Positions 189 to 24,870 of a stretch of DNA of 24,870 nucleotides are shown piece by piece (position 1 is the stretch's first letter; each line of letters starts with the position of its first letter). The DNA lies in IMG/VR virus record IMGVR_UViG_3300010392_001237, positions 1-24,870 of that record. One strand, 5' to 3'. Both the position numbers and the translations under genes were made by a program. The notes beneath the pieces are model-generated. The model was not told the DNA's origin and did not search any database. It saw only the letters and a list, made by a program, of their open reading frames with translations. Source of the DNA: a virus.

Positions 189-206
189 GTGTGCCGTTCT
201 CCCCGG

Positions 207-644: not shown

Positions 645-653
645 GCTGCCACG

Positions 654-2913: not shown

Positions 2914-2992
2914 TGAACGTTCCGTGTGTTGAAAGTGTGGCGGCGTCCGGCGCGGTAGTCCGACGGCCGGATCGCCGCAAAGGGTGTACGAT

Positions 2993-3028
2993 GGATCCGG
3001 GCGACGATCGAAACCGCCGCCCGGATCC
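2993..3028 (-). terminator. Perfect 11-bp inverted repeat just downstream of the capsid gene
   Basis: GGATCCGGGCG (2993-3003) and CGCCCGGATCC (3018-3028) form a perfect 11-bp stem with a 14-base loop, 14 bases after the capsid stop codon in the direction of transcription. There is no T-tract, so this is not a standard intrinsic terminator. A stem here may stabilise the abundant capsid mRNA or reduce read-through into the downstream genes; that role is inferred. Confidence 0.45.
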
Positions 3029-3041
3029 CTCAGCAATGGGT

Positions 3042-4370: not shown

Positions 4371-4627
4371 TCCTTCGCCCCTATTCGAGTGTGAAAACCG
4401 CAACGCGACGGCGGCGGTTCGTGGTCGCCTTGCAGCGACGGTACAGCAGAGACACGCACGGAACCGGCCGAACTGGGCAGCCCGGATACAGTGGAGCGGC
4501 CGCACAACGGCGGCCGTCAGACGATCGTTTCAGCGGCGCGGACATTGGATCCGCGAACGTCGCGTGCGGTTGATCGTCGAGCGGTCGGAAAACTGGTCGC
4601 AGCGCCGGACGTTGTCAACCTTAGTTT
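4371..4627 (-). other. Intergenic leader between protease and capsid genes
   Basis: The only sizeable gap in the head part of the late operon (257 bases). On the minus strand it carries a TTGACA hexamer at 4618-4613 without a convincing -10 box, and a perfect 7-bp stem (CGGCCGC 4497-4503 with GCGGCCG 4510-4516). It may hold a capsid promoter or a leader/RNA-processing signal that raises capsid output over the protease. Open frames crossing it look like shadows, with no family pattern. Confidence 0.3.
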
Positions 4628-5341
4628 TCAGAGTGCCAGCATTCGCAACCGGCGTTCGCGTTCCTCGGCCGCCGGTTCGTGGTAGTTCCGCCGGATGAAC
4701 TCGGACAGTTCCGTGCGGAGCTGGACGACTTCCGCGCAGTCCTCGGACCGCTGGTCCGTCAGGAACAGACACGGCGACCGCTTGCCGCGAACGCCCGCGT
4801 TCGTCCCGGTGTACGCGGGGAACGTGACCGGTCCGACGTCGAACAGTTCAACGGCGGTGACGTTCCGAATATAGATCGTGACGCCGTCGTCGGTCGTTTC
4901 TTCCGTCCATTCGACGCCGCCGGTCATCGCCCGGAACTGAAAACTCGAACCGGTCATGTCGCCGCGGTTGAGTGCGACGACAGTGTCGCGCCCGGCCTGC
5001 GTGTCCGGCGTGTCGATTTCGTAGTCGAGTCCGTGCGACTCCAGGCGAAGCGACAGCGTGTTCGCGTTCGATCGACCGAGCAACAACCGCGGGTCGTGAT
5101 TCTGCAGCGCCCGGACGTCGTCGCGGGTGACCGCCTCGTCGAACGCTCCCGGCTGGATCCGTTCGAATACGTCGTTCCACAACTGGTATTGAGTCCCGGC
5201 GCGGTCGGCCGTGTCGAAGTAGACGGCCGCGGTTCCTGCGATCTTCGGCAACTGGTCGCCGCCGTCGTCGTTACGGCGTTCGATCGTGCGAAGTCCGCGG
5301 AGTTCACGCGGGACAAATCGGCGGTTCAGTTGTGGCATCAT
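4628..5341 (-). CDS. HK97-family prohead maturation protease
   Basis: 237 residues. It cleaves the capsid scaffold domain inside the procapsid. The family hallmarks are present: 'RIQPGAFDEAV' (about 61-71), 'ALQNHDPRLLLGRSNANTLSL' in pieces with the catalytic His at about residue 82, and 'MTGSSFQF' with the catalytic Ser near 132-133. The Ser/His arrangement is that of the herpesvirus-assemblin-like U35 peptidases. The first ATG (5341) overlaps the stop of the upstream gene as ATGA; a second ATG follows directly. The C-terminus after about residue 190 is charged and helical, a likely self-scaffolding or capsid-contact tail. Confidence 0.92.
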   Translation of the reverse strand: MMPQLNRRFVPRELRGLRTIERRNDDGGDQLPKIAGTAAVYFDTADRAGTQYQLWNDVFERIQPGAFDEAVTRDDVRALQNHDPRLLLGRSNANTLSLRLESHGLDYEIDTPDTQAGRDTVVALNRGDMTGSSFQFRAMTGGVEWTEETTDDGVTIYIRNVTAVELFDVGPVTFPAYTGTNAGVRGKRSPCLFLTDQRSEDCAEVVQLRTELSEFIRRNYHEPAAEERERRLRMLAL

Positions 5342-5976
5342 TCTTCCCTGTCGTGATGGTGGAACAGACCGGCAATTCCCTTCAACCGGCCGACGATGAT
5401 TTGACAGCGCGTGATTTCCGCGTCCGTCAGTCCTTCAGGATCGTGCGTCGCGAAACTGCAATACGTCACCGCTCGCGCGGAACTGCCCGGCAGTTTCAAC
5501 GATTCCAGGTGAAACCACGCGGACGCGGTCACCTGTTCATTCTCGTAAACCGCTTTGATTGCGGATTCGGGGATATCGTCGACGCGGAACACGAGCGGCC
5601 GCCCGGCCTTGATGTGCTGCAACCGCGACACGTAGTCGGCGTCGAGTTCGAAATGGACGTATGAAACCGGCTGATGTTCTCCGCGGCGTTGCTGGTAGAT
5701 CGCCGTTGCCCATTTCGGCGAGTGCTGCCCGTTCCAGGCCTTCAGAATCAGGAATCGGTCGACCGCGGTTTGTGTCATCAGCGATTCGAGTTCGCGTTGT
5801 GTGTCGTGCCATTCTCCGAGCACGTCCGTGAAATCGAGTGCCGCTTGTCGGAACGACAGTTCCGTGGCCGCCAGTTCCGCGCGGATCCTCTGTCGATGCG
5901 TCGCCAGATATCCCGACGCCGCGGTCACCGCGACGCCTGCAAACCCGATCAATGCGACAACGATTTCGCTTCCCAT
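5338..5976 (-). CDS. Membrane-anchored protein with GAF-like domain, between portal and protease
   Basis: 212 residues. An N-terminal hydrophobic segment (MGSEIVVALIGFAGVAVTAASGYL, 1-24) is followed by a coiled-coil helix (about 25-65, including a basic HRQRIR after the membrane part). Then comes a globular domain with 'VDRFLILKAWNGQHSPKW', 'VSYVHFELDADYVSRL', 'PESAIKAVYENEQVTASAWFHLESL' and 'AVTYCSFATHDPEGLTDAE'. That pattern of strands and helices looks like a degenerate GAF fold; this is a fold guess, not a certain family match. A host-membrane sensor-like protein is not part of the standard head cassette, so it is probably a moron or a lysogeny/defence factor. The gene is tightly packed between portal (1-base gap) and protease (ATGA overlap). 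Confidence 0.6.
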   Translation of the reverse strand: MGSEIVVALIGFAGVAVTAASGYLATHRQRIRAELAATELSFRQAALDFTDVLGEWHDTQRELESLMTQTAVDRFLILKAWNGQHSPKWATAIYQQRRGEHQPVSYVHFELDADYVSRLQHIKAGRPLVFRVDDIPESAIKAVYENEQVTASAWFHLESLKLPGSSARAVTYCSFATHDPEGLTDAEITRCQIIVGRLKGIAGLFHHHDREE

Positions 5977-5977
5977 A

Positions 5978-7585
5978 TCACGCCGCCAGTTGATTCAGTG
6001 CGAACGTTGCCAGGGCATCGGCCGACCAGTTGTCGACGGCGGCCGCGACCGCTCCCGGGAACTCTCCCGGCGTCCTGATCGAATACAGATCCGACAGTTC
6101 GTCGCGGACCGACCGGCAGAACTCGGCGGCGATCTGTTCGGCCGCTTCCGCGGATCCGCCGCACAACGCCAGAACCGGACCGACCGCGGACCGGACAGTT
6201 TCCGCGTTGCGCGGTTCGATCTGTTCCAGCCAGTCCGGGAACGTGTCGGACTTGGCGGCCGCTTTCGTCGCCTGAACGGCAACGCGTTTGACCATCCGGC
6301 GGAACACGTCCGACAGTGCGTTCAACTGGTCCGCCCGACTCGGCGAGCGTGAACGGCCGGCGGCGTCGGTGTCGTCGTCATCCTCGGACGTGCCGTCGCC
6401 GTCGTTCTTCGGTGTCATGTTCAGCGGTTTTAGCAGTTCGTCCGCTCCGTCGATCGGCGGCAACGAATCGACTTCGCGTCCCTCCGCTGGTGTCATCCAC
6501 GGACCGCCGATTGCGTCCTTGAGATACTTTGCCCGGTCCGCCATGTTGGTACGTGTGAGCGACTCGCGGACCGCTTCGACTTCATGCGAACCGGATTCCT
6601 GTTCCGCTTCGGTCAGTAGCTTTTCGTACTCGTTCTCGAACTGGCATAGGTACGGGTCAAGGGTGTCATCCCGGAACGCTCGGTTTTCTTCCTCCAGACT
6701 CTTGTAACTCGATTTCCCGTCGCCGTTCAGCTTGTGGACCGACATCCCGAGCGCGTTCGCAATGTCCTTCAGACTGAATTCGCGGCTACCGATGAGCTGC
6801 GTCTGTTCGGCCGTCAGTCCGAGCGAATCAAGTTTGAGCGTATCAAGGAACGGGATTCGGTGCGGGTCGTCGATCGCGCCGCGGAGTGGTCCGTTTTCCG
6901 ACGTGAGCTGGTTGAACCGGTCTTCGGAGACGGACGTTTCCGACCGCGCGTAGACCGTTGGGTGTCCGCCGTTCTCGTAGTACCTCGCCGCATAGTCCTG
7001 CTCGGCGATCGCCAGTCCGAGCACGTCGCGAGCGTAACCGCGGAGCGGATCGATTCCGCAGAACCCATCCAGCGAAAACCCGCGAATGTGAATGATATCC
7101 GACGCCGACACGGTCCGTTCGTGTCCGTCGAACCGATAGCGGAGTTGCCCGTTGATCAGAACCGGTTGAACCTTGCCCGGATCCAGAACGCGGAGTTCGA
7201 CCGGGAACCCGTTCCGGCGACTGATGAAACCGTATCCGTTGCCGCGCATCAGTGCCGACACGGTCAACGCGTTGCGAAACGCCATCGCCGAAACGGCGTG
7301 ATACCGGGACCACTTCCGGACCAGCGGCCAGGCGGCGTGCGACTTGTCTTTCGCGTTCCCGGCCTTCACGTGAAACGGAGTTTTCCCGACGTAGTCCGAG
7401 ATCAGTTGAACGCCGCGTTTGTAGGCGGCAACGCGCATTGCGGTCTGTTCGCTGACCTGCTTTCCGGATGTCGCAACCGCCAGCGTTCGGCCGCCGATCG
7501 CCGCGAACAGTTCCGGCGAATATCCGAGTTTGACGGCCGCGCGGAACGCCACGTTTCCGGCCGCCAGTTTCAGCGCTTGCAGCAT
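5978..7585 (-). CDS. Portal protein (HK97 / phage_portal family)
   Basis: 535 residues. It forms the dodecameric ring through which DNA enters and leaves the head. Visible family blocks are 'RGVQLISDYVGKTPFHV' (about 57-73), 'NALTVSALMRGNGYGFISR', 'ELRVLDPGKVQPVL', 'DIIHIRGFSLDGFCGIDPLRGYA' and 'SREFSLKDIANALGMSVHKL'. The C-terminal region after about residue 385 has an acidic linker (DGDGTSEDDDDTD) followed by a helical domain of about 130 residues that is longer than in HK97 itself and might contact protease or scaffold. The start lies 4 bases after the terminase stop. Confidence 0.93.
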   Translation of the reverse strand: MLQALKLAAGNVAFRAAVKLGYSPELFAAIGGRTLAVATSGKQVSEQTAMRVAAYKRGVQLISDYVGKTPFHVKAGNAKDKSHAAWPLVRKWSRYHAVSAMAFRNALTVSALMRGNGYGFISRRNGFPVELRVLDPGKVQPVLINGQLRYRFDGHERTVSASDIIHIRGFSLDGFCGIDPLRGYARDVLGLAIAEQDYAARYYENGGHPTVYARSETSVSEDRFNQLTSENGPLRGAIDDPHRIPFLDTLKLDSLGLTAEQTQLIGSREFSLKDIANALGMSVHKLNGDGKSSYKSLEEENRAFRDDTLDPYLCQFENEYEKLLTEAEQESGSHEVEAVRESLTRTNMADRAKYLKDAIGGPWMTPAEGREVDSLPPIDGADELLKPLNMTPKNDGDGTSEDDDDTDAAGRSRSPSRADQLNALSDVFRRMVKRVAVQATKAAAKSDTFPDWLEQIEPRNAETVRSAVGPVLALCGGSAEAAEQIAAEFCRSVRDELSDLYSIRTPGEFPGAVAAAVDNWSADALATFALNQLAA

Positions 7586-7589
7586 GGGT

Positions 7590-9266
7590 TTACATCATCC
7601 GGATTTGTGGTCGTTGTCCGTCCTTCGTTTCGCGGACTTCGTGAAACAACGCCTCAGCGAATGCGAAGAACACGGCGACGAGTGGGTCGATTTTCTCGCG
7701 GCTCGATTGCTTCGACGGTTTGATCAGTCCGTCGCCGCTGGTGTGAGTGACAAGGTTTGTTGCGCACCAGGACAACACGGGGTCGTCGCCGTGAATCACC
7801 TGGCGTTCAGCGAACAGTCGCAGGATTTCCCGGAACGGTTCGTTCCACGTCCGCGCCCATTGCGAGAACTCGTAAACGTGACAACCGCGGGCGACGAGTT
7901 CCGAACCCAAAATCCGCGCGTTGTTCGGATCGATCGCAATCGACTTCAAGTTGTAGAGTTCCCGCGCTTCGGCAACGGCCGAATAGATCGCGTCCGCGTC
8001 CGTCGTGTTGCCTGGCGTGATCGTCAACAGTCCGTCGCTGATCCACGTTCGGAACGGTTCGGCCGTCAGATCCCGGCGACAGTCCGCCGGAAGGAACGAC
8101 CGACATTTGATCGCCCACGGTTCCCCCTCGCGGAGCGGTGGGAACACGAGTCCGAACGCCGCCAGGTCATCACGGAAACCGATGTCGATTCCGCCGTATG
8201 CGATCCGGCCGGACAGAACCGGAAGCGGTTTCGCCCCGGCCTTCCAGAGTCTGTCCGGAATCGCCCGCGACAGTGATTCGACGCGCTGGTTGCAGTGGTA
8301 GCGCCGGAACGCGTTCAGAGCTTCCGGCAGTTCCGCCGCTTTGCGTGCCAGTTCTTCCAGATAGTCCCATCGAACCGAAACGCCGAGATTCGGATTGGCT
8401 TTGATCCAGTTGTCGCGGTCGAACGGGTCGTCGTCGTCATCAATGCAGCAAATGAAACTGAAGTGCGAATCGTCGACAACCTCGCCGAGAACAACGCGAA
8501 CGGAGTACGACCGCTCCCGTTTCCAGAGTTCGGACTGATCATCGCCCGCCGTCGTGATCACGACAAACAGTGGTTGCGGCCGGATCCCGGATCCCGTCGT
8601 GAGCTTCTCCCATAGTTTGAGATGCTTTGCCGCTTTCCATTCGTGGAGTTCGTCGAAGAACACGCCGTGCGGCGACAGTCCGTCGGCCGACTTCCCTTCG
8701 GATCCGAGCGGCCGCAACACGCCGCCGTCCGGCCGTTTCAATCGCGCTTTCGATTCCAGATACTTGCAACGACGCGACAGGAACGGCCGCGCCTGCGTCA
8801 TCGCTACCGCCTTATCGAAAACGATTCCGGCTTGTTCCTGTTTCGTCGCCGCGCAGTAACAGTCCGGTTTTGCCTCGCCGTCCGCGTGGAACAGCAAGCA
8901 CGATATTGCGGCGGCGAATTCGGACTTTCCGTTCTTCCTCGCTATTTCAATCCACGCCTGCCGGAACCGTCGGTGTCCGTCGACCGTCCGTCGCCATCCC
9001 CACAAATTCCAGACAATGAACACCTGCCACGGCGACAGGATGAACGGTTTCCCGTTGAATTCGGATTCGGTCAGCGGCAACAGTTGAATGAACGCGACCG
9101 CGAATTCGGCCTTTTGCTGGTCGAAGTAGAAACCGCACGTGCCGGACTTCGCGCGTTTCAGATCATCGACGTACCGTCGGACCGCCGCGCGTTGAAGTTC
9201 CCCGGCGACCAGTTTTCCCGACAACACGTCGTCGCAGTATTGCGCAACGATGTTTGCCGCGTTCAC
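7590..9266 (-). CDS. terL: Terminase large subunit (ATPase and nuclease)
   Basis: 558 residues; powers DNA packaging and cuts the concatemer. ATPase part: the adenine-binding region with 'LSPWQVFIVWNLWGWRR' (about 78-93), a Walker A variant ARKNGKSE at 109-116, Walker B with catalytic Glu in GVFFDELHEW (201-210), and the coupling motif ITTAG (about 237-241). Nuclease part: the first metal-binding Asp in GGIDIGFRDD (Asp361), a second acidic site in SIAIDPNNA (Asp446), and a third in EKIDPLVA (Asp527). This is the Terminase_1 family, of normal length. It overlaps the small subunit gene by 4 bases. All catalytic residues are intact. Confidence 0.95.
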   Translation of the reverse strand: MNAANIVAQYCDDVLSGKLVAGELQRAAVRRYVDDLKRAKSGTCGFYFDQQKAEFAVAFIQLLPLTESEFNGKPFILSPWQVFIVWNLWGWRRTVDGHRRFRQAWIEIARKNGKSEFAAAISCLLFHADGEAKPDCYCAATKQEQAGIVFDKAVAMTQARPFLSRRCKYLESKARLKRPDGGVLRPLGSEGKSADGLSPHGVFFDELHEWKAAKHLKLWEKLTTGSGIRPQPLFVVITTAGDDQSELWKRERSYSVRVVLGEVVDDSHFSFICCIDDDDDPFDRDNWIKANPNLGVSVRWDYLEELARKAAELPEALNAFRRYHCNQRVESLSRAIPDRLWKAGAKPLPVLSGRIAYGGIDIGFRDDLAAFGLVFPPLREGEPWAIKCRSFLPADCRRDLTAEPFRTWISDGLLTITPGNTTDADAIYSAVAEARELYNLKSIAIDPNNARILGSELVARGCHVYEFSQWARTWNEPFREILRLFAERQVIHGDDPVLSWCATNLVTHTSGDGLIKPSKQSSREKIDPLVAVFFAFAEALFHEVRETKDGQRPQIRMM

Positions 9267-9802
9267 GTTGTCCGCCGTTTACCTTTATTGGATCGTTTCG
9301 CCGGTCGTTTCCGACTGGCGGTTCGTGTGGTTCGTTTCTTTGGTTTCGGTCCGCCGTTGAACTGGTCGCCGTATTGTTTCAGCAGCAACTCGAACGGATC
9401 CTGTTCCGCATCGATCGGCGTTGCCGATGTCGATCCGGTCAACGCGGTTCGACTCTGCGGTGTCATTCCGAATTCAGCGAGCAATTCCCGAACGCCTTTC
9501 GCCTGTTGCCGAATGATCGAAACGAGCGGGTTTTGTTGCTGGGCTCCGTTCTTGCCGACCGTCTGAACCAGTTCCGACGCGACAAGTTGTTCTGACGCGT
9601 CGAGGTACGCGACAACGCCGTCGCAGAGCATCGCGAACGCGGTTGCGTCGAGATTCTCAAGCAATCCCAGCGCGTTCAGTTGCAACGCGTATCGGTTCCA
9701 GAACTCCAGCGACCGCGGATCCGTCAGCCAGTCCGGCGGATCCGGAACCGGTCCCGGCGTCGCCGTTGTCTTCGGTTGGGTCTTTGGTCCGCGTCTGGTC
9801 AC
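9263..9802 (-). CDS. terS: Terminase small subunit, P27 family
   Basis: 179 residues; recognises phage DNA and hands it to the large subunit. The P27-type pattern is clear: 'PPDWLTDPRSLEFWNRYALQLNALGLLENLDATAFAMLCDGVVAYLDA' in pieces, then 'NPLVSIIRQQAKGVRELLAEFGMTPQSRTAL'. After this core comes an extra linker and a very basic tail (about 150-179, KPKKRTTRTASRKRPAKRSNKGKRR) that could hold DNA non-specifically. The gene lies 3 bases after the HNH gene and overlaps terL. Confidence 0.92.
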   Translation of the reverse strand: MTRRGPKTQPKTTATPGPVPDPPDWLTDPRSLEFWNRYALQLNALGLLENLDATAFAMLCDGVVAYLDASEQLVASELVQTVGKNGAQQQNPLVSIIRQQAKGVRELLAEFGMTPQSRTALTGSTSATPIDAEQDPFELLLKQYGDQFNGGPKPKKRTTRTASRKRPAKRSNKGKRRTT

Positions 9803-9805
9803 GTC

Positions 9806-10111
9806 TCACCGTTGGTTTTCCGTCGCGGTCTTTCTTGAATGACAGGACCAGCACAACGCCTGGTGATTCGATTCCGGCCAGAACAACGGATCGTCCGGAC
9901 CGGTCACGGGTTTGATGTGGTCGGTTGCCTCCGACGCGCGAGTGATTCCGTTCCGAGCGCAGATCACGCACAACGGATTCCGGGCGAGGTATCCGCGTGA
10001 GTACGTTTGCCAGCGGCGACCATAACCGCGGCGGCCGGACGACGGCCGCCGGTCGTGTTTGCGGGTGACGCGGCGTTTTCCCCTGTCGCCGCGTTGCGGC
10101 GCGACCGGCAT
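9806..10111 (-). CDS. HNH endonuclease of the packaging cassette
   Basis: 101 residues from ATG 10111 (MPVAPQRGDRGKRR), one base after the stop of the lipoprotein gene; a longer open frame upstream overlaps that gene and is not used. It has a basic, Arg-rich first third, then the HNH core: CVIC (48-51), 'EATDHIKPVTG' with the DH pair at about 64-65, 'NHQALCWSCHSRKT' with the second zinc pair (87-90) and the last His at 91. HNH proteins next to terS/terL in HK97-like phages assist terminase cleavage at packaging, and this gene has that exact position. Confidence 0.9.
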   Translation of the reverse strand: MPVAPQRGDRGKRRVTRKHDRRPSSGRRGYGRRWQTYSRGYLARNPLCVICARNGITRASEATDHIKPVTGPDDPLFWPESNHQALCWSCHSRKTATENQR

Positions 10112-10112
10112 G

Positions 10113-10589
10113 TCAGCGGTTCGCCGCCTTCGAATTCGGATGGATCCGAACGAGTGCGAGCAACGCCGCCCGGCGTGCAGCTGCGTTCCGTTCTGTTGAG
10201 TATCCGAACGACTCGTCGAACATGGTTCCGTTGCGGTAGAACTCAACGTGCGGCGTTCGCTGGTGGTCGGCGTCCGGCGGTAGAATCAACCAGTCGGCGT
10301 CCGCGTCCGGATCACGCGACAATGACCACCCGGCGTGCGCGTTCACAAGCCAGTGAAGATCCGCCTCAAGACACTGGCAAGGAATGCAGAAGGCGGACGA
10401 ATAGACTTTCGCGCCTGTGAATCCGGCTGGTTCGTCCGGTTCAATGAACGGATCGACCGGCCGCGGAGCTGGCGGAGTGTCGACGATTTCGCCGAACTGC
10501 GGTTCGTTGTCGACGTCCGGAACCTCCGGTTTGTCTTCGACGCAACCGGCCAGGAACAGAACGAGCGTCAGCCAGAATAGAACGCGCAT
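10113..10589 (-). CDS. Lipoprotein with thioredoxin-like domain
   Basis: 158 residues from ATG 10589 (MRVLFWLTLVLFLAGC), with AGGGG 6 bases upstream. The first 16 residues are a lipoprotein signal peptide ending in a lipobox LAGC, so the mature protein would be lipid-anchored outside the cytoplasmic membrane. A Pro/Asp/Glu-rich spacer follows, then 'AKVYSSAFCIPCQCLEADLHWL' with a CxxC motif after a strand, and later 'TPHVEFYRNGTMFDESFGY', which matches the cis-Pro strand of thioredoxin folds. A redox or cysteine-holding role in the envelope is likely, but the substrate is unknown. It is unusual for a gene just upstream of packaging genes. Confidence 0.75.
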   Translation of the reverse strand: MRVLFWLTLVLFLAGCVEDKPEVPDVDNEPQFGEIVDTPPAPRPVDPFIEPDEPAGFTGAKVYSSAFCIPCQCLEADLHWLVNAHAGWSLSRDPDADADWLILPPDADHQRTPHVEFYRNGTMFDESFGYSTERNAAARRAALLALVRIHPNSKAANR

Positions 10590-10600
10590 CGCAACCCCTG

Positions 10601-10909
10601 TCAGACGGACGACACGGAAACCGAACGCGACGGCTTCGCCTTGTCGATGAGTTCCTGAGCGGTCGCCGGTCCGGCGATGGTGATAAACTCGTCGCGCCAT
10701 TTCACCCGCCCCGGTTTTTCGACGATCGCCACGCGGAACGATCCGCGCTTCGCGTTGGTTTTCCCGGCCGCGTCCAGTGCGGCGATCAGTTCCGCGTCGA
10801 TCCGGCGGACTTCGGCCGCGTACGGTCGCGCCTGAGATTCGAGTTCGCGGCGTTTCGCGTCAGCTTCTGCGCGTTTCTGCAACAGTGCGGCGGTGAGTTT
10901 TACAGACAT
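10601..10909 (-). CDS. Small coiled-coil protein of unknown function
   Basis: 102 residues from ATG 10909 (MSVKLTAALLQKRAEADAKRRELESQ), with GGAA about 7 bases upstream. Residues 8-50 form a charged helix suited to a coiled coil. The C-terminal half has 'GSFRVAIVEKPGRVKWRDEFITIAGPATAQELIDKAK', which looks like two strands and a helix. It is cytoplasmic, with no signal peptide. It lies between two lipoprotein genes in the first part of the late operon. I do not recognise a family; a small DNA- or nuclease-interacting protein is possible but not shown. Confidence 0.6.
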   Translation of the reverse strand: MSVKLTAALLQKRAEADAKRRELESQARPYAAEVRRIDAELIAALDAAGKTNAKRGSFRVAIVEKPGRVKWRDEFITIAGPATAQELIDKAKPSRSVSVSSV

Positions 10910-10920
10910 AGCTGGTTCCG

Positions 10921-11088
10921 TCAGGGACGCGACCAGTCGTCGCTGTCTTCGACTGGTGGCAGTGGTTCGTATTCGTGAGGGTCGATTTCGTGCGCCCACG
11001 GGTCGCGCGAAATGCAGCAGCAGCAACCCACGACAACATGCAACAGAACAATGGCGACGATTCCGAACAGTGCGGCGGTGCGGTTCAT
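10921..11088 (-). CDS. Very small Cys-rich lipoprotein
   Basis: 55 residues, ATG at 11088 overlapping the stop of the preceding gene as ATGA. The sequence starts MNRTAALFGIVAIVLLHVVVGCCCC: a short basic n-region, a long hydrophobic core and a lipobox VVGC at about residues 19-22, followed by three more cysteines. The mature part is acidic and Pro-rich (HEIDPHEYEPLPPVEDSDDW). By size and anchor it could act as an outer-membrane spanin partner or a superinfection-exclusion lipoprotein; the sequence alone does not decide. The gene is easy to miss because of its size. Confidence 0.6.
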   Translation of the reverse strand: MNRTAALFGIVAIVLLHVVVGCCCCISRDPWAHEIDPHEYEPLPPVEDSDDWSRP

Positions 11089-11423
11089 GTTCTGCGGCTC
11101 CGGCGTTTCCGTGTGGTTTCCAGTTTGGCGACGCGGCGTTCGAGTTCTGCGATTCGCTGGTCGGCCGTCTGTTCGAGTTGTTCGACGCGTTTGTCGTTCG
11201 TCAGCGAACGGCCGATCGTCTTCACGATTCCGGACGCCGCGGCGACCTGCGGAAAGAACACGCCCGCCAGCGCCAGTCCTGCGGACGCAACGTCGCGAAT
11301 CAATCCGGCGTCGATGCCTGCGGAAGTGGGAACGCCGTGTTCGTATCCGGCCGCCGAGAGTCCACCGAAAGCAACGGCGGAAAGCGTGCCGAGCACACCG
11401 CGAACGCCTTTTGCGTTCTTCAT
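11085..11423 (-). CDS. Membrane protein with C-terminal coiled coil; holin candidate
   Basis: 112 residues, first gene of the late operon. Two hydrophobic stretches (about residues 8-26, 'VLGTLSAVAFGGLSAAGY', and 42-66, 'IRDVASAGLALAGVFFPQVAAASGI') are followed by a coiled coil ('VEQLEQTADQRIAELERRVAKLET') and a basic tail KRRSRR. Two membrane segments, small size and a charged C-terminus fit holin-like proteins, and it is followed by two lipoprotein genes as in some lysis cassettes. No endolysin is visible in the window, so the lysis role stays a guess. GGTGA lies close upstream of the start. Confidence 0.6.
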   Translation of the reverse strand: MKNAKGVRGVLGTLSAVAFGGLSAAGYEHGVPTSAGIDAGLIRDVASAGLALAGVFFPQVAAASGIVKTIGRSLTNDKRVEQLEQTADQRIAELERRVAKLETTRKRRSRRT

Positions 11424-11651
11424 GTTTCACCCGACCGCGTGTCGGTGTCCGGCGGTGCAACGCGTGTTGCGGTCGTCGCCGTTGAGCAGATAAAAAGCGG
11501 GGTGAACGGTTCCGTCCGTCCATCTCCCGCCTTTTCGGCATCCATGCCGAACGCGTGGTTTCGTCGCAGCGCCCTGGATTGTCAAGGGCATTCGGCGCCG
11601 CCGCGTCTCTCCTCTCCTGTCTCTCTCTTCTCAATCCGCCAGGAAAACGCC
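11424..11651. promoter_or_regulatory. Divergent intergenic region between late operon and plus-strand gene
   Basis: 228 bases between two genes pointing away from each other, so promoters for both must lie here or be read through. I see no strong sigma-70-like pair. Visible elements are a hairpin at about 11492-11534 (AAAAAGCGGG with CCCGCCTTTT, long loop), which could act as an attenuator, and a pyrimidine-only tract at 11608-11632 just before the plus-strand ribosome site AGGA. Candidate control point for late expression. Confidence 0.4.
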
Positions 11652-11921
11652 ATGTCAAACGGGTACAATCTGCCCGCGCACGGTCGGCGTGCGCGAACGA
11701 CTCCCGCATTCATCCGCGACCGGAACCGCATCACCTTGCAATTTACTTCAGAGGAAAAACGCGCGCTGGAATGGTTGTCGCGTTGCCCCGATTCCGCCTC
11801 GTTGCCGCGACCGTTCAACGCGTTGCGACGCGCACCAGTTCGCCAGATCGCAAAAACGATCAGCGCGAAACAACTGTCGCGACTGGTCGAGATTCACACC
11901 CGGCGCGACACTGAGGACTGA
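11652..11921 (+). CDS. Small basic protein ending inside the attachment core
   Basis: 89 residues from ATG 11652 (MSNGYNLPAHGRRARTT), with AGGA 7 bases upstream. The protein is basic and contains 'ITLQFTSEEKRALEWLSRC', a strand-helix start like that of small ribbon-helix-helix or helix-turn-helix regulators, and 'VRQIAKTISAKQLSRLVEIHTRR'. Its TGA stop (11919-11921) lies within the anticodon loop sequence of the tRNA-Phe-like fragment. Position next to the attachment core makes an accessory recombination protein (excisionase-like) or regulator possible; no family is recognised. Confidence 0.55.
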   Translation: MSNGYNLPAHGRRARTTPAFIRDRNRITLQFTSEEKRALEWLSRCPDSASLPRPFNALRRAPVRQIAKTISAKQLSRLVEIHTRRDTED

Positions 11922-11959
11922 AAATCCTGGTGTCGGCGGTTCGATCCCGCCTCTGCCCA
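11914..11959 (+). other. attP: Candidate phage attachment core: 3' half of tRNA-Phe(GAA)
   Basis: From 11914 the sequence folds as the 3' half of a tRNA: anticodon arm AGGA-CTGAAAA-TCCT (loop with T33 and anticodon GAA), variable loop GTGTC as in many tRNA-Phe, T arm GGCGG-TTCGATC-CCGCC, acceptor strand TCTGCCC and discriminator A. No matching 5' acceptor strand (GGGCAGA), D arm or fifth anticodon pair is present upstream, so it is not a tRNA gene. Such 3' fragments are the identity blocks by which tyrosine integrases insert into tRNA genes while restoring the gene. An integrase gene lies 2 kb away. Confidence 0.75.
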
Positions 11960-12073
11960 TTGGTCAAAATCGACTCGGCCGCCGTGATCGGCTGGCCGCG
12001 TCGACTCCCCCCCCTTCGAAATGCGCGCGAAAAACTGGGTAACGCCTGGCGTGGTTTCCAGTTTTTTCACCCG

Positions 12074-12103
12074 GAGAAAAACGACCGCCCCTGGTTGGCG
12101 GTC
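12074..12103 (-). terminator. Intrinsic terminator for leftward transcripts
   Basis: On the minus strand a 7-bp perfect stem (12103-12097 with 12089-12083, GACCGCC/GGCGGTC) with a 7-base loop is followed by GTTTTTC. It would stop transcripts of the minus-strand membrane protein gene before they enter the attachment core. Confidence 0.65.
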
Positions 12104-12200
12104 CTGAATCGTGGCAGTGTCGGCCGTCGGCGACGGCGGCCGGAGTTTCCAGCGGACGGCGGTTCGCGTCAGGTTCACTCGTTACCCGCTGCCACCCGCG

Positions 12201-12238
12201 CCGCCGCGGTCGTTCATTCGGCCGCGGCGGTTCTTTTT
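12201..12238 (+). terminator. Intrinsic terminator for rightward transcripts
   Basis: CCGCCGCGG (12201-12209) and CCGCGGCGG (12222-12230) form a perfect 9-bp stem with a 12-base loop, followed by TTCTTTTTG. It would end a transcript that starts at the small plus-strand gene and crosses the attachment core. Confidence 0.75.
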
Positions 12239-12241
12239 GCG

Positions 12242-12550
12242 CGTCCGGTTCGTGTCCGTGAATGTCCGGACATTTTCCGGACATTTGTCCGGCGACTGTC
12301 CGGACGTGTCCGACGGATGTCCGGCCGAGTGTGTCGGGCCCGCATCTTCTGGCGTGGCGCCCGTGACCGAGTTCCGGCCTGTCCATGGACTGGAATCAGC
12401 GAAACGGCTGTTTTTCCGCTGTTTTCGACGCCGCGTCCGGTTTGTGTCCGGATTTTGTCCGTGAACGCCCGGACAAATGTCCGGCGAATGTCCGCCTACA
12501 GAACAGAACAGAACAATCACCGGTCCGGTAGGCGGTCCGGTCCGGTCCGG
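12242..12550. repeat. Field of TGTCCGG-type direct and inverted repeats
   Basis: Two clusters (about 12250-12335 and 12434-12493) contain many copies of TGTCCGG/TGTCCG and their inverse CCGGACA, some fused as palindromes such as ATGTCCGGACAT near 12262. They are followed by a GAACA triplet repeat (about 12500-12516) and a GGTCC-rich run (12520-12550). Dense short repeats beside an attachment core and upstream of an integrase resemble arm-type recombinase sites or replication iterons. The consensus spacing is irregular, so the binding protein cannot be named. Confidence 0.6.
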
Positions 12551-12588
12551 CCGGTGGTTGGAAGTGAATGAATGACATCCAATCGCAT

Positions 12589-13071
12589 TCAGCGGCGTTC
12601 GATTGGTGCATTCAGCAACTGCGGGACTTGATGTCGCAGCGACTGGTCGCGGTACCTGGCCGACAATCGCTGGTCGTCACGGATGGATCGCAGCAGTCCG
12701 GACTGAACGGCGGCGGCCGTCAGTTGTGAGGCGGACGCGTCGGCAACGGTGCTTCCGAGATACAGCACGGCGGCAACAACGGCCAGTCCCGACGACAGGA
12801 ACGCGACAGATCCGACCGCGGCGGCGGCCGCCAGAGCGAACAGACACCACGAATTGACGGTCGCGCGGGTAGCGGCGGCGCTGGTGCCGTTGTGCGAATC
12901 GGCGGACGTCCAGTCCATGGACAACGGCTCCGAAGTGTGAGCGCTCGAGCTTGTTTCCTTCGAGGATTTCGCCGCCGCGGTCGTCTGCGGTTTGCGCTTG
13001 TGGTCCGGCCTGGTCTTCAGTCCGAGCGCCTGGGCGGCGATGTCTTCGGCGGTTGGTTGTTTTTCTGTCAT
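12589..13071 (-). CDS. Two-helix membrane protein with disordered N-terminus
   Basis: 160 residues from ATG 13071 (MTEKQPTAEDIAAQALGLK). No good ribosome site is visible, and the frame is open further upstream. Residues 1-75 are polar, Ser/Thr/Lys-rich and likely disordered. Then come two hydrophobic segments in 'SWCLFALAAAAAVGSVAFLSSGLAVVAAVLYLGSTVADA' (in pieces, about residues 80-118), separated by a short turn, and a C-terminal charged helix ('LLRSIRDDQRLSARYRDQSL'). As the only leftward gene between attachment core and integrase, it may be expressed in the lysogen, for example in superinfection exclusion. This is inference from position; no family is recognised. Confidence 0.55.
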   Translation of the reverse strand: MTEKQPTAEDIAAQALGLKTRPDHKRKPQTTAAAKSSKETSSSAHTSEPLSMDWTSADSHNGTSAAATRATVNSWCLFALAAAAAVGSVAFLSSGLAVVAAVLYLGSTVADASASQLTAAAVQSGLLRSIRDDQRLSARYRDQSLRHQVPQLLNAPIERR

Positions 13072-19547: not shown

Positions 19548-19580
19548 ACGACCGCCATAAACGGTCGGCAGGAGAAAAAC

Positions 19581-19910
19581 ATGAGTACAGAGAAAAACGA
19601 CAACCGTGCTCCCGTGCATGCGATTGTTGTCGGGCTACCACGTTCAGCCCGTGATGCTATCGAAAAGCTGCATTGGGCGATGGAGCACTTTGGAGCGTTG
19701 ACAACCAACCGATGTGTGACAAGGCGAACCGTGATGAAGTTAGTGGATCGTGGTATCGCAGAATCGGCAGGGCAGTGTGCGATGTGCGACGACGATGGTT
19801 TCACGATCGAACCGGAACGCTACCGCGAAGGATTCCGGTTGACCGAGTTTGGCATGAAGTGCCACACAGAATTGATGGACCACTACGAAAAGCTAATGTG
19901 TGCCGAGTAG
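19581..19910 (+). CDS. Cassette gene 1: hypothetical protein
   Basis: 109 residues with a good ribosome site (CAGGAG, 6 bases). The codon mix differs from the phage genes around it: CTA, TTA, CGT, GCT and CCA are used, while neighbours prefer G/C endings. The protein is soluble: 'SARDAIEKLHWAMEHFGALTTNRCVTRRTVMKLVDRGIAESAGQCAMCDDDGFTIEPERYREGFRLTEFGMKCHTELMDHY', with helices like a winged-helix and a CxxC. No family recognised. The attC-like site begins 4 bases after its stop, as is usual for integron cassettes. Confidence 0.6.
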   Translation: MSTEKNDNRAPVHAIVVGLPRSARDAIEKLHWAMEHFGALTTNRCVTRRTVMKLVDRGIAESAGQCAMCDDDGFTIEPERYREGFRLTEFGMKCHTELMDHYEKLMCAE

Positions 19911-19913
19911 TCC

Positions 19914-20003
19914 CGATAACGCCCGCAATCAGGCGGTTGCGGCGAGCGACTGGCCATTGGCAAAACGACATTTCCGCAACTCGCCTGCAACATTTTGTTA
20001 GCC
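19914..20003 (+). other. attC: attC-like integron recombination site 1
   Basis: About 90 bp: GATAAC at the 5' end (19915-19920), GTTAGCC at the 3' end (19997-20003), and inner arms AGGCGGTTGCGG (19931-19942) and CCGCAACTCGCCT (19975-19987) that pair as 12 bp with a single unpaired T. This architecture (outer AAC...GTT boxes, inner arms with an extrahelical base, variable centre) is that of attC. Strand exchange would lie between G19997 and T19998. Confidence 0.75.
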
Positions 20004-20014
20004 TGGATTTTGCA

Positions 20015-20251
20015 ATGGACGACAACGAATTGATCGAATTGGTGGAAAAGAACAGTCAAACCCTTGAGCAGTGGTTTGCATTGATGTTGTTTGGTGTCGA
20101 AACGTTTAAGAAAAAGCCTTTGCTCGCGGTGGAATTGATCGTTCGCGAGGCTGAACGCCGCCGCGTTAATTGCCCACAACACTGGACGACAGCGGATGTG
20201 GTTATGGAGTTAATGCGTCGGCTTGAGTGGTCGTTTTCAATCTCAGGATAA
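20015..20251 (+). CDS. Cassette gene 2: small helical protein
   Basis: 78 residues from ATG 20015, 18 bases after the exchange point of attC 1. The sequence (MDDNELIELVEKNSQTLEQWFALMLFGVETFKKKPLLAVELIVREAERRR) is helical with an amphipathic or semi-hydrophobic middle. Its TAA stop lies inside the 5' box of attC 2, a very typical cassette arrangement. No family recognised; codon use again differs from the phage genes. No ribosome site is obvious. Confidence 0.6.
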   Translation: MDDNELIELVEKNSQTLEQWFALMLFGVETFKKKPLLAVELIVREAERRRVNCPQHWTTADVVMELMRRLEWSFSISG

Positions 20252-20337
20252 CGTCAGCAATCACCGGGCCGCGACGGTTGATTGTCCATTTTGAAACAGC
20301 ACGGCTTCGCGGCTCCGTGTGCATTGCATTGTTATCA
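20246..20337 (+). other. attC: attC-like integron recombination site 2
   Basis: About 92 bp: GGATAAC (20246-20252) and GTTATCA (20331-20337) as outer boxes. Inner arms are CACCGGGCCGCG (20262-20273) and CGCGGCTCCGTG (20308-20319), pairing with one unpaired T and one bulged C. It shares the GCAATC spacer and unpaired T with site 1. Exchange would lie between G20331 and T20332, giving a 334-bp cassette 2 (19998-20331). Confidence 0.75.
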
Positions 20338-20338
20338 T

Positions 20339-20452
20339 GCTTGGTCGTCCAATGGCAGGACGCTGGAAGTTGCAACAGTTGGTCACGAGGGTAGCTCCCG
20401 AAAGGTCAACGACGGAAACCAGAAATCTTCGGTTCGATTCCGGGGCCAAGCT
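20339..20452 (+). ncRNA. tRNA-like structure with oversized anticodon-arm region
   Basis: Starts one base after attC 2. Acceptor strands GCTTGGT (20339-20345) and GCCAAGC (20445-20451) pair over 7 bp (one G-U). A D arm GTCC-AATGGCA-GGAC (20347-20361) and a T arm TTCGG-TTCGATT-CCGGG (20428-20444) are in the right places. Between them the anticodon stem could be CTGG (20363-20366) with CCAG (20419-20422), but the loop would be 52 bases instead of 7. It might be an interrupted, decayed or atypical tRNA, or another tRNA-mimicking RNA. No anticodon can be assigned. Confidence 0.4.
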
Positions 20453-20526
20453 CTTTGATGTTTACGCTGAATCACGGGACGCCGTGACGATGCCAACCGG
20501 TCGTCTACTGGATAGGACGCTGATCG
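20453..20526. other. Short leader with a second D-arm-like sequence
   Basis: GTCGTCTACTGGATAGGACG (20500-20519) repeats the form of the D arm of the preceding tRNA-like element, including the following GCTG, but no T arm follows. Its AGGA also serves as ribosome site of the next gene. It may be a remnant of a second tRNA. Confidence 0.3.
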
Positions 20527-20793: not shown

Positions 20794-20828
20794 AAAAACG
20801 GCCGCAACCAGAAGTTGCGGCCGTTTTC
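20794..20828. terminator. Bidirectional intrinsic terminator
   Basis: GGCCGCAAC (20800-20808) and GTTGCGGCC (20814-20822) form a perfect 9-bp stem with a 5-base loop, flanked by AAAAAC on the left and GTTTTC on the right. It can stop the rightward early operon and the leftward tail operon, which converge here. Confidence 0.85.
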
Positions 20829-20906
20829 ACGGATGCGGCGCGGCTTTCGGGAGAATCGCAACGCCTTGCGGTGTCGGCCGGATTGTCTCCCGTCAGGGTG
20901 TCCAGG

Positions 20907-21386
20907 TCAATGGCGACAGTAGTTCGCCGCCACGTTGACACGGTCCGACCATCCGACGCGGAACGCAATTCCTCGGAAGCGTTGCCCCTGAATCGCGGAA
21001 TGTCCCGGCGGAATCCATGCAGATCGACACGGCATCGCGCACGGCGGTTGATAGCAGATCGGCGGGGAACACGACGTCGAATACATCGGTGGACACGCGG
21101 ACGGCTGGCATTGATGGACGTTCGACAACACGACGCGTTGTCCGGCCAGTGGGTGTCCGGACATCGTCTGCGGAAGTCTGACCGGCGAGAACTGTGGATC
21201 GGGAATCGGCCGGATGGCAGTGAAACCGGCGGCCGTGTGATTCGCCGGCTGAATCGCATACTGAGAACACTGCCCGTTGATGCATGTTTGCGCGTGTACG
21301 TTGGTCGGAATCACCATGACGGCGACGGCCGCCAGAACGGCCAGAACGGCCATTGTCTTCGATGTGTGGAATGTGTCGCGTTTCAA
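20907..21386 (-). CDS. Secreted Cys/Pro-rich protein
   Basis: 159 residues from TTG 21386, chosen because a GGAGGG ribosome site lies 8 bases upstream; a later ATG would cut the signal peptide short. N-terminal LKRDTFHTSKT is followed by a hydrophobic core 'MAVLAVLAAVAVMVIP' and a cleavage-like 'NVHAQT' (Ala-x-Ala-like at about residues 28-31). The mature part has about ten cysteines ('CINGQC', 'CQPSACPPMYSTSCSPPICYQPPCAMPC'), suggesting disulfides outside the cytoplasm. It is last in the tail operon but preceded by its own 121-bp gap, so it may be an independently expressed moron acting in the host envelope. Confidence 0.6.
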   Translation of the reverse strand: MKRDTFHTSKTMAVLAVLAAVAVMVIPTNVHAQTCINGQCSQYAIQPANHTAAGFTAIRPIPDPQFSPVRLPQTMSGHPLAGQRVVLSNVHQCQPSACPPMYSTSCSPPICYQPPCAMPCRSAWIPPGHSAIQGQRFRGIAFRVGWSDRVNVAANYCRH

Positions 21387-21507
21387 GTTCCTGTCCCTCC
21401 GTGCATGTGTGCGGCCGCTGTACGGCCTGAAAACTGGATGTGGTTCAGTTTGTGGAATGGACTCGCAGCGCCGCCGCTGGTCAATGTCAGATCTGACAGT
21501 GGCGCGG
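21387..21507 (-). promoter_or_regulatory. Gap with 14-bp palindrome before the secreted-protein gene
   Basis: The gap holds the perfect palindrome TGTCAGATCTGACA (21485-21498) directly after the stop of the upstream tail gene. It could be an operator or short hairpin. No clear promoter boxes are visible. Confidence 0.35.
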
Positions 21508-22089
21508 TCACCGCGAAATCGTGATCGATTCCGGCAGCGTCGCATCGGTTCCGACGCGGGCGAACACGTTGTCGCCGTCGCAAGCGAATTCCGCTCGGCG
21601 GAACGTCGAGAACGAATCGCGGAGCGTCCAGACCTGCCACACGAACGCGGATCCGGTCGCGGCCGAACCGAGTTTCAACCCCTTGTCGGCCGTCAACCAG
21701 TCGTCGTCGATGACGTCATAGACGTTCAGACCGTCGACGATTTGAACGGTCGCCGGATCGTAGGCCACGCCGCCCGGCGGCGGATCGTTCGACCAGGTCC
21801 CGGAACCGGACAACGAGTATTCGAGAACCGACGCCGTCGCCAGGCAGTTCGCTTGCGGGTCCAGCGTGATCGGATCCGACCGGAACCGCACCAGATATTG
21901 AGCGGTTGTCGTGCCGCCGGTCGCCTCGAACGTCACGGTTCCGGCGTCCGTGTCTTCGACCGCGTTGAACGCGTAGTCGATCGTCCGCGAGCTGGCGGCC
22001 GCCGCAAGCCACGTCCACGGATGCAGTTCCCAGTTCGAACCCGGGCAACCGAAGCAAACCGGGTCGAATCCCTCACAACAAGCGGTCAC
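21508..22089 (-). CDS. Distal tail protein, hypothetical
   Basis: 193 residues from GTG 22089, which overlaps the preceding stop as GTGA; the longer ATG start would overlap that gene by 34 bases. It begins MTACCEGFDPVCFGCPGSNWELHPWTWLAA and continues as beta-rich sequence ('IDYAFNAVEDTDAGTVTFEATGG', 'YLVRFRSDPITLDPQ', 'SAFVWQVWTLRDSFSTF'). It shares the CC...C start with the preceding protein. Probably a tail-tip or receptor-contact component judged from neighbours and beta content; no family recognised. Confidence 0.55.
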   Translation of the reverse strand: MTACCEGFDPVCFGCPGSNWELHPWTWLAAAASSRTIDYAFNAVEDTDAGTVTFEATGGTTTAQYLVRFRSDPITLDPQANCLATASVLEYSLSGSGTWSNDPPPGGVAYDPATVQIVDGLNVYDVIDDDWLTADKGLKLGSAATGSAFVWQVWTLRDSFSTFRRAEFACDGDNVFARVGTDATLPESITISR

Positions 22090-22703
22090 GGTTTCCGCTC
22101 CAGAGTGACGCGCAACCATTCCGGGAACAACGGGTCCGGAGTGTCACGCGTGAACAAGTTCGAACCGTTGCAGTCGAACCGGTCGAAGTCCGGCGAGTAT
22201 TCCAGAAGTTCCGCCCATGATGTGATGTTTCGCGTATGTCCCATCGACCGGCGTTTCCCGGCATCTTCCAGAGCGTAGAGCGGCATCTTTTCCAGTCCGA
22301 CGACCGCGGACCAGTAGTCGCTTAACCATGGATTCTGCCAGTTGCCGTCGACTTTCAACGACGTTGACGAATACCACCCCGAAAGCGGGTGCCAGTCGAA
22401 CAACTCCGGTTCGACCGAACCGGATAAAACGCGAGCTTCCCGTGGTGCGACAGCAAACCAGCGACACGGATTAATCGCGTCGAGACTCATTAACTCGGAC
22501 AACGCCCTATACCGTGTTTCAAACACGACCGGCGAGAACGTTCCGGGACTGTCCGGATTCGGATAGTAACCGGTTGCGGTCACCGATTCGGCGGCCTGCG
22601 GTTGCGCGAGTCGCCAGGTGAATTCGTTCCAGTCGACGGTCGGACACGCCGAACACTGGTCGGCGCAACACGGTTCCGTCGGATTGAATCGAGCAATGCA
22701 CAT
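22086..22703 (-). CDS. Distal tail protein, hypothetical
   Basis: 205 residues from ATG 22703, overlapping the upstream TAA (TAATG). It starts MCIARFNPTEPCCADQCSACPTVDWNEFTWRLAQP, with cysteines that may bind metal, then a beta-rich domain ('GYYPNPDSPGTFSPVVFETRYRALSELMSL', 'HPLSGWYSSTSLKVDGNWQNPWLSDYWSAVVGL'). The aromatic content fits surface-exposed tail proteins. Role is inferred from position in the leftward tail cluster. Confidence 0.6.
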   Translation of the reverse strand: MCIARFNPTEPCCADQCSACPTVDWNEFTWRLAQPQAAESVTATGYYPNPDSPGTFSPVVFETRYRALSELMSLDAINPCRWFAVAPREARVLSGSVEPELFDWHPLSGWYSSTSLKVDGNWQNPWLSDYWSAVVGLEKMPLYALEDAGKRRSMGHTRNITSWAELLEYSPDFDRFDCNGSNLFTRDTPDPLFPEWLRVTLERKP

Positions 22704-23485
22704 TATTCCGGCGGTTCCTCCGTTTCGCCTGGTCCGCCGCCTCCCCCGCCCGTCGGTTCCTCCTCCTCGCCGTCCGATCCGCCGCCGTTGGTGACAATGT
22801 CGTCGGTCGGCGGTTCCGCGAAACTGAACGACCGGCATTGCCACGCCGAAACCACATAGGCGGCCGAGTACGTTGGGACCGCAATTCCGATTGCGCCGTT
22901 GGGAATGTTGCCAGTCGGAAACGGCAACGCATCGACAACCGGAACGGTTTCGACGGTTTCGCCGTCATAGCTGAGAACTCGCCAGGCCTCCTGACGGACG
23001 ATCGTTCCGCCCGTGAACGCGGATTCGTCCAGCGGATCCGCCGGTTCGTATGGTTCCGCTGTGAATGTCGGGAACCCGGTCCGGTCGATCCACGCGAATT
23101 CCCAGCGGCCAGGCAGCGACGTGACACGCACGGTTCGTGAACCGATCCAGTCATAGACGGCGGTTCGCAACGCCTCGTTGGTTGCGTTGCAGGGAACACG
23201 GAGTGTTTCGCCGCTGAACGTCAGTTCGATGTCGCCGGACAATTCGCGGCCGACCATTTCGACCGTATGCGTGAACTGATCCGGTCGCCATTCGAAACAC
23301 GCGACGGACCGCGCGGCGGTCGGGTCGTATGCGATCGCATCGAATCCCAGCAGACACACACGAGTCGCCAGCGGCGGCCGTTTCTGTGATCGGCCGGCGG
23401 ATTCCACTTTGGAAATTCCCGCGGCGTCGATCAATCGGCCGACGTTGTAATGTTGCCGCGCTGTCAGTCCGTAAACGTCTGCCAT
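22703..23485 (-). CDS. Tail-associated protein with acidic Gly-rich end
   Basis: 260 residues (MADVYGLTARQHYNVGRLIDAA). After an N-terminal helix comes 'KRPPLATRVCLLGFDAIAYDPTAARSVACFEW', then repeated beta segments ('GDIELTFSGETLRVPCNATNEALRTAVYDWI', 'RVLSYDGETVETVPVV') and a C-terminal low-complexity tail (GGGSDGEEEEPTGGGGGG). Proteins starting 'YGLTARQHYNVGRL' occur as minor tail proteins in phage tail clusters. The Gly/Glu tail may be a flexible connector to fibres. The gene starts one base after the stop of the fibre gene. Confidence 0.6.
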   Translation of the reverse strand: MADVYGLTARQHYNVGRLIDAAGISKVESAGRSQKRPPLATRVCLLGFDAIAYDPTAARSVACFEWRPDQFTHTVEMVGRELSGDIELTFSGETLRVPCNATNEALRTAVYDWIGSRTVRVTSLPGRWEFAWIDRTGFPTFTAEPYEPADPLDESAFTGGTIVRQEAWRVLSYDGETVETVPVVDALPFPTGNIPNGAIGIAVPTYSAAYVVSAWQCRSFSFAEPPTDDIVTNGGGSDGEEEEPTGGGGGGPGETEEPPE

Positions 23486-23486
23486 G

Positions 23487-24870
23487 TCACAACGCCATAT
23501 CGGCGGCGAATGAAAGCGGACCAGTCAGAACGGTGCGTTTCTTTCCGCTCGAATAGGTCGCCTGAATCTGCCAGGTGTATTCCCGCAGATGGTCGGCATT
23601 GGCGAGATTCGCCGCGGGGATTTCAATCGGAATGGTTGTCTCTCCGGCCGCGTGCGTGATGTCGCCCTGTGTCACGGTGCCCGTGATCACGTCGCCTGTC
23701 GATCCGTATCCGGCCGCGAATTTGATGGATGACACCGAAACGTCGGTCAGAATATCATAGATTGTCTGCCCGGCGTCGGCGACGTCCCGGTCGATCGTGG
23801 TTGCGTTGTCGTCGTGGTAGTCGTCGCCGACGACCAGCGAGATTTCGCCGCCCGGCAGCACCGGACCGACAATCGACAGACCGTCGGTAGAGATCGCGGA
23901 CGTCTGGTTGTTGATCGATTCCAGCAACGTCGCGACGACGTTTCCGGCCTGCGTTCCGCTGTACGAACCAGGAATGTTCGTTATCCACGGATCGCCCGCG
24001 GATCCGGCGGCCGCCAGTGCTTCGGCGGTCGAACCCGACGTTCCGGTGTGGTCCGTGAGTGCTTCTGTCCAGACCGCGTCCGCGATGTCGGCGGCCGATG
24101 CTCCCCCGCCGCCGCCCGCGTTCGCGAGTGCTTCGGCGGTCGAACCGGCCGTTCCGCTGTGGTCGCCGATGGTTTCCGTCCAGACGGCGTCGGCAACCGT
24201 CGCCGCCGTCGGTGCTGCGGTGTACGAGCTGGCGGCCAGTCGCGTTGAAACGGCCGCGTCCATGTTCGCCAGTGCGGCCGCGATTGTTGGGTCTGCATTG
24301 ACCGCCGCGACGATCGCCGTTCGTTCCCCGGTCGTGAGTGTCTTCGCGGCCGAAACGTTCTCGTCGATGCGTCCGAGTTCGACTGTCAGTTCCGTGCGAA
24401 CCTGAGTCGCAACGGCCGCGGCCGACGGTGCCACGGTGTAGGAGCTGGTCGGGAGTCGCGTTGAAACGGCCGCGTCCATGTTCGCCAGTGCGGCCGCAAT
24501 CGTGGCGTCGGCATTGATCGCGGAGACAATCGCCAGCGGCGACGCGTCGCCCGCAACCCAATCGGCCGCGATCTGGTCGGCGATCGCCTGCAACACGGCC
24601 GAACCGTCCGAGTCGTTCAGAATGTCCGCCGCGACGGAAACCGCGATCGCCGTTCGTTCCCCGGCCGTGAGTGTCTTCGCGGCGGAAACGTTCTCGTCGA
24701 TCCGGCCGAGTTCCGTTGTCAGGTTTGTGCGGACAGCGGCCGCGACGGACGAACGTTCGCCGGCCGTGAGTGTCTTCGCGGCGGAAACGTTCTCGTCGAT
24801 CCGGCCGAGTTCCGTTGTCAGGTTTGTGCGGACAGCGGCCGCGACGGACGAACGTTCGCCGGTTGTGAGT
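23487..24870 (-). CDS. Repeat-containing tail fibre protein, N-terminus cut by window edge
   Basis: The frame is open from the right edge (codons begin at 24869) to TGA at 23487, so at least 460 residues are present and the N-terminus is missing; the internal ATG at 24596 is not the start. The right part consists of 33-residue units of the type 'LTAGERSSVAAAVRTNLTTELGRIDENVSAAKT'. Then come two 'NADxTIAAALANMDAAVSTRL' units and two 'ADAVWTE...DHxGTxGSTAEALA' units typical of phage fibre and tail-tip proteins. The C-terminal 120 residues are beta-rich and end 'KKRTVLTGPLSFAADMAL'. The helical repeats would form a shaft; receptor binding is not placed. Confidence 0.8.
   Translation of the reverse strand, partial: LTTGERSSVAAAVRTNLTTELGRIDENVSAAKTLTAGERSSVAAAVRTNLTTELGRIDENVSAAKTLTAGERTAIAVSVAADILNDSDGSAVLQAIADQIAADWVAGDASPLAIVSAINADATIAAALANMDAAVSTRLPTSSYTVAPSAAAVATQVRTELTVELGRIDENVSAAKTLTTGERTAIVAAVNADPTIAAALANMDAAVSTRLAASSYTAAPTAATVADAVWTETIGDHSGTAGSTAEALANAGGGGGASAADIADAVWTEALTDHTGTSGSTAEALAAAGSAGDPWITNIPGSYSGTQAGNVVATLLESINNQTSAISTDGLSIVGPVLPGGEISLVVGDDYHDDNATTIDRDVADAGQTIYDILTDVSVSSIKFAAGYGSTGDVITGTVTQGDITHAAGETTIPIEIPAANLANADHLREYTWQIQATYSSGKKRTVLTGPLSFAADMAL
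24667..24870. repeat. 99-bp tandem repeats in the tail fibre gene
   Basis: Units start at 24667, 24766 and 24865, nearly identical over 99 bp (33 codons), with the third cut by the edge. A diverged relative lies near 24332-24430. Near identity at DNA level suggests recent expansion by unequal recombination. Confidence 0.85.

Follow-up and report, generated by a model that had tools for sequence, protein, structure and literature searches.

The window, the whole stretch of 24,870 bases analyzed here, is an entire IMG/VR virus record. Its minus strand carries the genes for the terminase, the portal and the major head protein, and the last members of its plus-strand early region encode a replication-initiation protein, a DUF1643 protein and an HNH endonuclease. 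The minus-strand late genes (1–12600 and 20900–24870) continue past both ends of the record, which makes a circular or circularly permuted phage genome, almost complete at ~25 kb, probable. The segment under study lies after the HNH gene and before both the converging late genes and a hairpin at 20795–20827, and comprises gene 1, a first palindrome (E1), gene 2, a second palindrome (E2) and a tRNA-like sequence. The hairpin at 20795–20827, located between the converging early and late operons, is near-perfect, is flanked by A- and T-runs that give T-runs on both strands, and is a candidate bidirectional terminator; it also gave a weak Thr_leader match in Rfam. The interval 19548–19580, which separates the HNH gene from gene 1 on the left border of the low-GC segment, has a small hairpin (CGACCG...CGGTCG) that does not resemble attC.

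Genes and tRNA-like sequence of the segment

Gene 1 (19581..19910, plus strand) is a 109-amino-acid open reading frame (ORF) with an AGGAG ribosome-binding sequence and an unassigned function; its structure model was of too low quality to be informative (pLDDT 44.6). Gene 2 (20015..20251, plus strand) encodes 78 amino acids, and its TAA stop codon lies at the edge of the predicted cassette unit. An AlphaFold model built from the single sequence was all-helical and fairly confident (pLDDT 80.7), which supports gene 2 as a real protein. Searches returned no family or sequence relatives of gene 2 and no significant fold matches. With pattern scans, which reach close relatives only, no relatives were found for gene 1 among viral contigs and plasmids, or for gene 2 among viral contigs, GTDB genomes and plasmids. 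A minus-strand ORF at 19883–20182 with a codon-position GC pattern like that of gene 2 was also considered. Because this ORF passes straight through E1, gene 2 was preferred, a choice that its single-sequence fold supports.

To the right of E2, a tRNA-like sequence (20339..20451, plus strand) was identified by reading the sequence: the acceptor, D and T arms are recognizable, the acceptor (GCTTGGT/GCCAAGC) looks intact, and the anticodon region holds ~30–45 extra nucleotides that can form hairpins of their own. ARAGORN called it only with a halved score threshold and an intron allowed, and not at default settings. A pattern scan of viral contigs returned nothing for it, distant blastn gave just one short, weak match, to a phage tRNA-Thr, and the segment had no match in Rfam.

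E1 and E2 score as attC sites

Two covariance models of attC were built. The reference set consisted of 80 genome loci with integron integrases, together with class 1 integrons and phage integrons, in which attC sites were located through box and arm matching. Model R1 was built from 23 sites and model R2 from 141 R1 hits in integron loci; R2 was trained partly on R1 hits, and its E-values are rough owing to a shortened calibration. With either model, the top two hits in the window were exactly E1 and E2. E2 (20246..20337, minus strand) scored 38.9 bits with R2 (E = 4e-7) and 29.4 bits with R1, and E1 (19914..20003, minus strand) scored 25.7 bits with R2 (E = 4.5e-4) and 15.2 bits with R1, while the next-best R2 hit reached only E = 0.43. 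An initial annotation made from the sequence had described two ~90-bp elements of attC architecture, one after each small gene, and had suggested a covariance-model search; both elements are present there, and both lie above the noise of R2.

Tetrasphaera phage TJE1 served as a positive control: R2 recovered three of its attC sites, with 40.0, 31.9 and 28.8 bits, and the scores of the two window sites are of the same order. The sites of phage P12002L were not recovered with R2 at E ≤ 1, showing that the model overlooks some attC sites. None of 43 distantly related phage records was matched by R1 at E ≤ 0.5. We also ran an independent architecture scan based on boxes, spacers and one-sided extra bases. 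In its strict form, E2 scored 14.5 on the minus strand versus 5.0 on the plus strand, and E1 scored 11.9 versus 6.6; no score of 11.5 or more was obtained in 400 simulated windows and 4000 local simulations of 911 nt, one strand each.

Both elements have the outer boxes (AAC...GTT) and the long inner arms described in the initial annotation, and both contain unpaired bases. Read on the minus strand, E2 has the boxes R″ TGATAAC (20331–20337) and R′ GTTATCC (20246–20252), and E1 has R″ GGCTAAC (19997–20003) and R′ GTTATCG (19914–19920). The outer boxes thus take the form TAAC...GTTA in both sites, in keeping with the YAAC / GTTR pattern of R″ and R′, are paired and contain the G^TT cut point, and the outer half of each R′ box departs from GTTRRRY. 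The right end of E2 falls at 20337, which corrects the earlier limit, and the TAA of gene 2 was confirmed to lie within an outer box of E2, as previously proposed. The inner L″/L′ arms, the 5- and 6-nt spacers found in each site and the one-sided extrahelical bases follow the same plan as the reference sites. In E1, the R″-L″ arm has an extrahelical G and A, that is, T-N6-C on the bottom strand, the spacing of good IntI1 substrates: IntI1 excises T-N6-G and T-N6-C sites most efficiently (PMC3053210). In E2, the same arm has an extrahelical G, A and A, corresponding to T-N7-C and one further bulged T on the bottom strand. On this evidence, both palindromes are attC sites as judged from sequence.

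The two sites differ in how well they are predicted to fold. E2 folded better than nearly all of its shuffles (z = -2.9), and the ensemble ratio for its paired-box attC form was 0.93 on the plus strand, which is the bottom strand expected from the orientation of the sites, versus 0.86 on the minus strand. The folding of E1 was not outstanding against shuffles (z = -1.05), the attC form is not its structure of lowest free energy, and the corresponding ratios were 0.06 and 0.004. Given these differences in fold ratio and z-score, E1 is the weaker site of the two.

The sites are oriented against the genes

The covariance model, the extrahelical bases, the 5- and 6-nt spacers and the G beside the AAC of R′ on the bottom strand agree in assigning E1 and E2 to the minus strand, whereas the plus strand carries genes 1 and 2. 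At intI loci, the extra bases in the R″-L″ arm pointed to the expected strand in 43 of 47 candidate sites. In the reference loci, all but one of 141 R1 hits lay on the strand expected from intI or the cassette genes, and the lone wrong-strand hit was weak, a 60-bit site read in reverse. When the extrahelical bases are transferred to the opposite arm, the other strand is recombined and cutting occurs in R″ instead of R′, and the established cut is G^TTRRRY in R′ (PMC2727003).

From the orientation of the sites and this known cut, we infer a bounded unit at 19920..20251 (minus strand, 332 nt), with cuts at the G^TT in the R′ boxes of E2 and E1. This unit, which holds gene 2 in antisense together with E1, is the only one predicted to have attC cut points at both ends; its best ORF in the attC direction is 27 aa long, versus 78 aa in antisense. 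E2 would close a cassette to its right, at the tRNA-like sequence, and gene 1 would lie outside any bounded cassette. Two claims of the initial annotation are revised accordingly by the strand assignment. It had placed each attC site downstream of its own plus-strand gene, whereas the model, spacers and extrahelical bases point to the minus strand. It had also described a second cassette exactly bounded at 19998–20331; with the sites on the minus strand, this interval is not bounded where preferred recombination would cut, and it would require cutting at the disfavoured boxes.

Of the 77 cassettes examined in the reference arrays, 68 had their longest ORF in line with attC and 9 had it in antisense; several of these nine exceptions are ambiguous, since they have ORFs of similar length on both strands. 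A gene-opposed attC site is therefore uncommon, with precedent. In a canonical cassette, the gene lies 5′ of its attC and both share one direction, and here attC is on the minus strand and the genes are on the plus strand. A CALIN, an attC cluster without an integrase, has at least two attC sites on the same strand within about 3–4 kb and no integron integrase nearby; here the two minus-strand sites are 332 nt apart and no integrase gene is nearby. No TIGR02249 match, the signature sought for an integron integrase, was found anywhere in the record, in agreement with the earlier observation that the window lacks one. The absence of attI or attC to the left of gene 1 was likewise upheld: R2 detected no attC there in the window, and no attI or further attC was detected on either side.

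The segment has the lowest GC content in the phage record

The GC content of gene 1 is 0.53 and that of gene 2 is 0.48, compared with 0.58–0.65 in the other early genes tested, a difference in composition that agrees with the earlier remark on codon use unlike that of the genes on both sides. Among all 900-nt windows of the record, GC content is lowest in the one beginning at 19571 (19571–20470; 0.519 versus 0.612 ± 0.022). This dip suggests acquired DNA that takes in gene 1, E1, gene 2, E2 and the tRNA-like sequence, and entry at a secondary site in the phage genome is possible. The replication protein had no match that could identify close phage relatives. For the terminase, the best match had ~42% identity with no comparable locus, and no phage with an empty site was found. 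Three relatives of the HNH gene came from unrelated phages with other genes downstream and were set aside.

Interpretation of the segment

We propose that the segment is a small CALIN on a small tailed phage, a reading that its sequence makes very likely. One or more cassettes would have reached the phage in an earlier host, through the trans action of an integron integrase or because a piece of an array recombined illegitimately. When single-stranded, the plus strand would fold into attC hairpins, and a host integrase could then excise the 332-nt unit at 19920–20251 or insert it at an attI or attC site; such mobility is predicted. Gene 2 runs along the phage early operon and against the attC sites, so phage promoters, and not an integron promoter, probably drive its transcription, and this is plausibly why the orientation may have been kept. 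Counting against a CALIN are the weak R1 score of E1, the off-consensus R′ boxes and the uncommon gene-opposed arrangement, as well as the searches for cassette relatives, an empty site and an integrase gene in the record, all of which came back negative.

The layout of two forward cassettes, gene 1 with E1 and gene 2 with E2, would have the attC sites running along the genes, with cleavage at GTTAGCC (E1) and GTTATCA (E2). Gene 2 starts 17 nt past GTTAGCC, a stop codon within an outer box such as that of E2 is typical of cassettes, the shared direction of gene and attC is the majority state in reference cassettes (68/77), and top-strand recombination is known at a low rate (PMC9892861). We nevertheless consider this layout very unlikely, as both sites score with R2 on the minus strand only, the architecture scores are lower on the plus strand (6.6 and 5.0 versus 11.9 and 14.5), and every extra base lies in the arm that marks the opposite strand. 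Chance resemblance to attC, in transcription terminators or other phage hairpins, is extremely improbable. Both palindromes directly follow stop codons and attC sites can act as weak terminators (PMC9892861), but neither palindrome is followed by a T-run. Their arm sequences differ, yet they share one plan of spacers and extrahelical bases and one strand; nothing comparable arose in the simulations or in the 43 other phages, and the combined significance of the two R2 hits also speaks against chance.

A somewhat unlikely alternative is that the sites are attC by descent, in a piece of an array that arrived via illegitimate recombination and is now immobile. The absence of integrase and attI, outer ends that are not recognizable attC cut points and the imperfect E1 would fit such inert relics; on the other hand, both sites retain paired boxes, extrahelical bases and spacers, and comparable sites of phage TJE1 are active with IntI1 (PMC9892861). 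Beyond the CALIN itself, the whole ~900-bp segment might be a run of cassettes that came into the phage in reverse, consisting of the tRNA-like sequence with E2, gene 2 with E1, and gene 1 with its attC lost, whose antisense genes, the tRNA-like one among them, would owe their expression to the phage early operon. We regard this extension as unlikely; if true, it would give phages a means of domesticating antisense cassettes.

For the preferred CALIN reading, the predicted consequence is that a phage could ferry integron gene cassettes from cell to cell, and phage-borne attC clusters make cassette transfer by infection testable. The opposed polarity alters which piece would be mobile and would make expression of the cargo depend on the phage instead of an integron.

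Comparison with known systems

In a screen of 10,705 phage genomes, Qi et al. (2023) reported 17 CALINs, and IntI1 recombined five of the six phage attC sites tested (PMC9892861). Phage-borne cassettes are therefore a known kind: integrase-less attC clusters on phages were already published in 2023, and the novelty of the present locus is lower than the initial annotation implied.

Integron-type integrases were also encountered in two other records. Virus Rctr41k, from a methane- and ammonium-oxidizing enrichment, encodes one (4680–5678) with 45% identity to IntI1 and has at most one weak attC-like hit (8686–8813, 18.9 bits with R1), unconfirmed by R2. A contig binned as a Chloroflexi MAG carries an integrase that shares 68% identity with IntI1, along with at least 11 attC sites; this may reflect a binning error or a transferred integron.

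Among established cases, the integrons of the temperate phages Shewanella phage M16-3 and Vibrio phage Va_90-11-286_p16 resemble the locus in the window, as small genes accompany phage-borne attC sites; unlike the present record, they include an integron integrase gene. The aadB cassette in RSF1010, as cited in PMC10127599, lies at a secondary site. Recombination between attC and a G^TT-type secondary site, with the integrase supplied in trans, is a candidate entry route here too; in that account the insertion is exact and the empty site known, whereas no empty site was found for the phage segment.

The closest parallels are the CALINs of Tetrasphaera phage TJE1, Pseudoalteromonas phage PH101 and Polaribacter phage P12002L (PMC9892861), which share with the window at least two attC sites, no integrase, small unassigned genes between the sites and a tailed phage as carrier. 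In P12002L the site directions are divergent (PMC9892861), whereas both window sites are on the minus strand. In the TJE1 cluster, two sites of which were assayed with IntI1 (PMC9892861), sites and genes run in the same direction, whereas the window sites oppose their genes. This opposition of both sites to the genes is what differs here, and the locus extends phage-borne attC clusters to an uncultivated small tailed phage and to an attC polarity opposite to that of the cargo genes.
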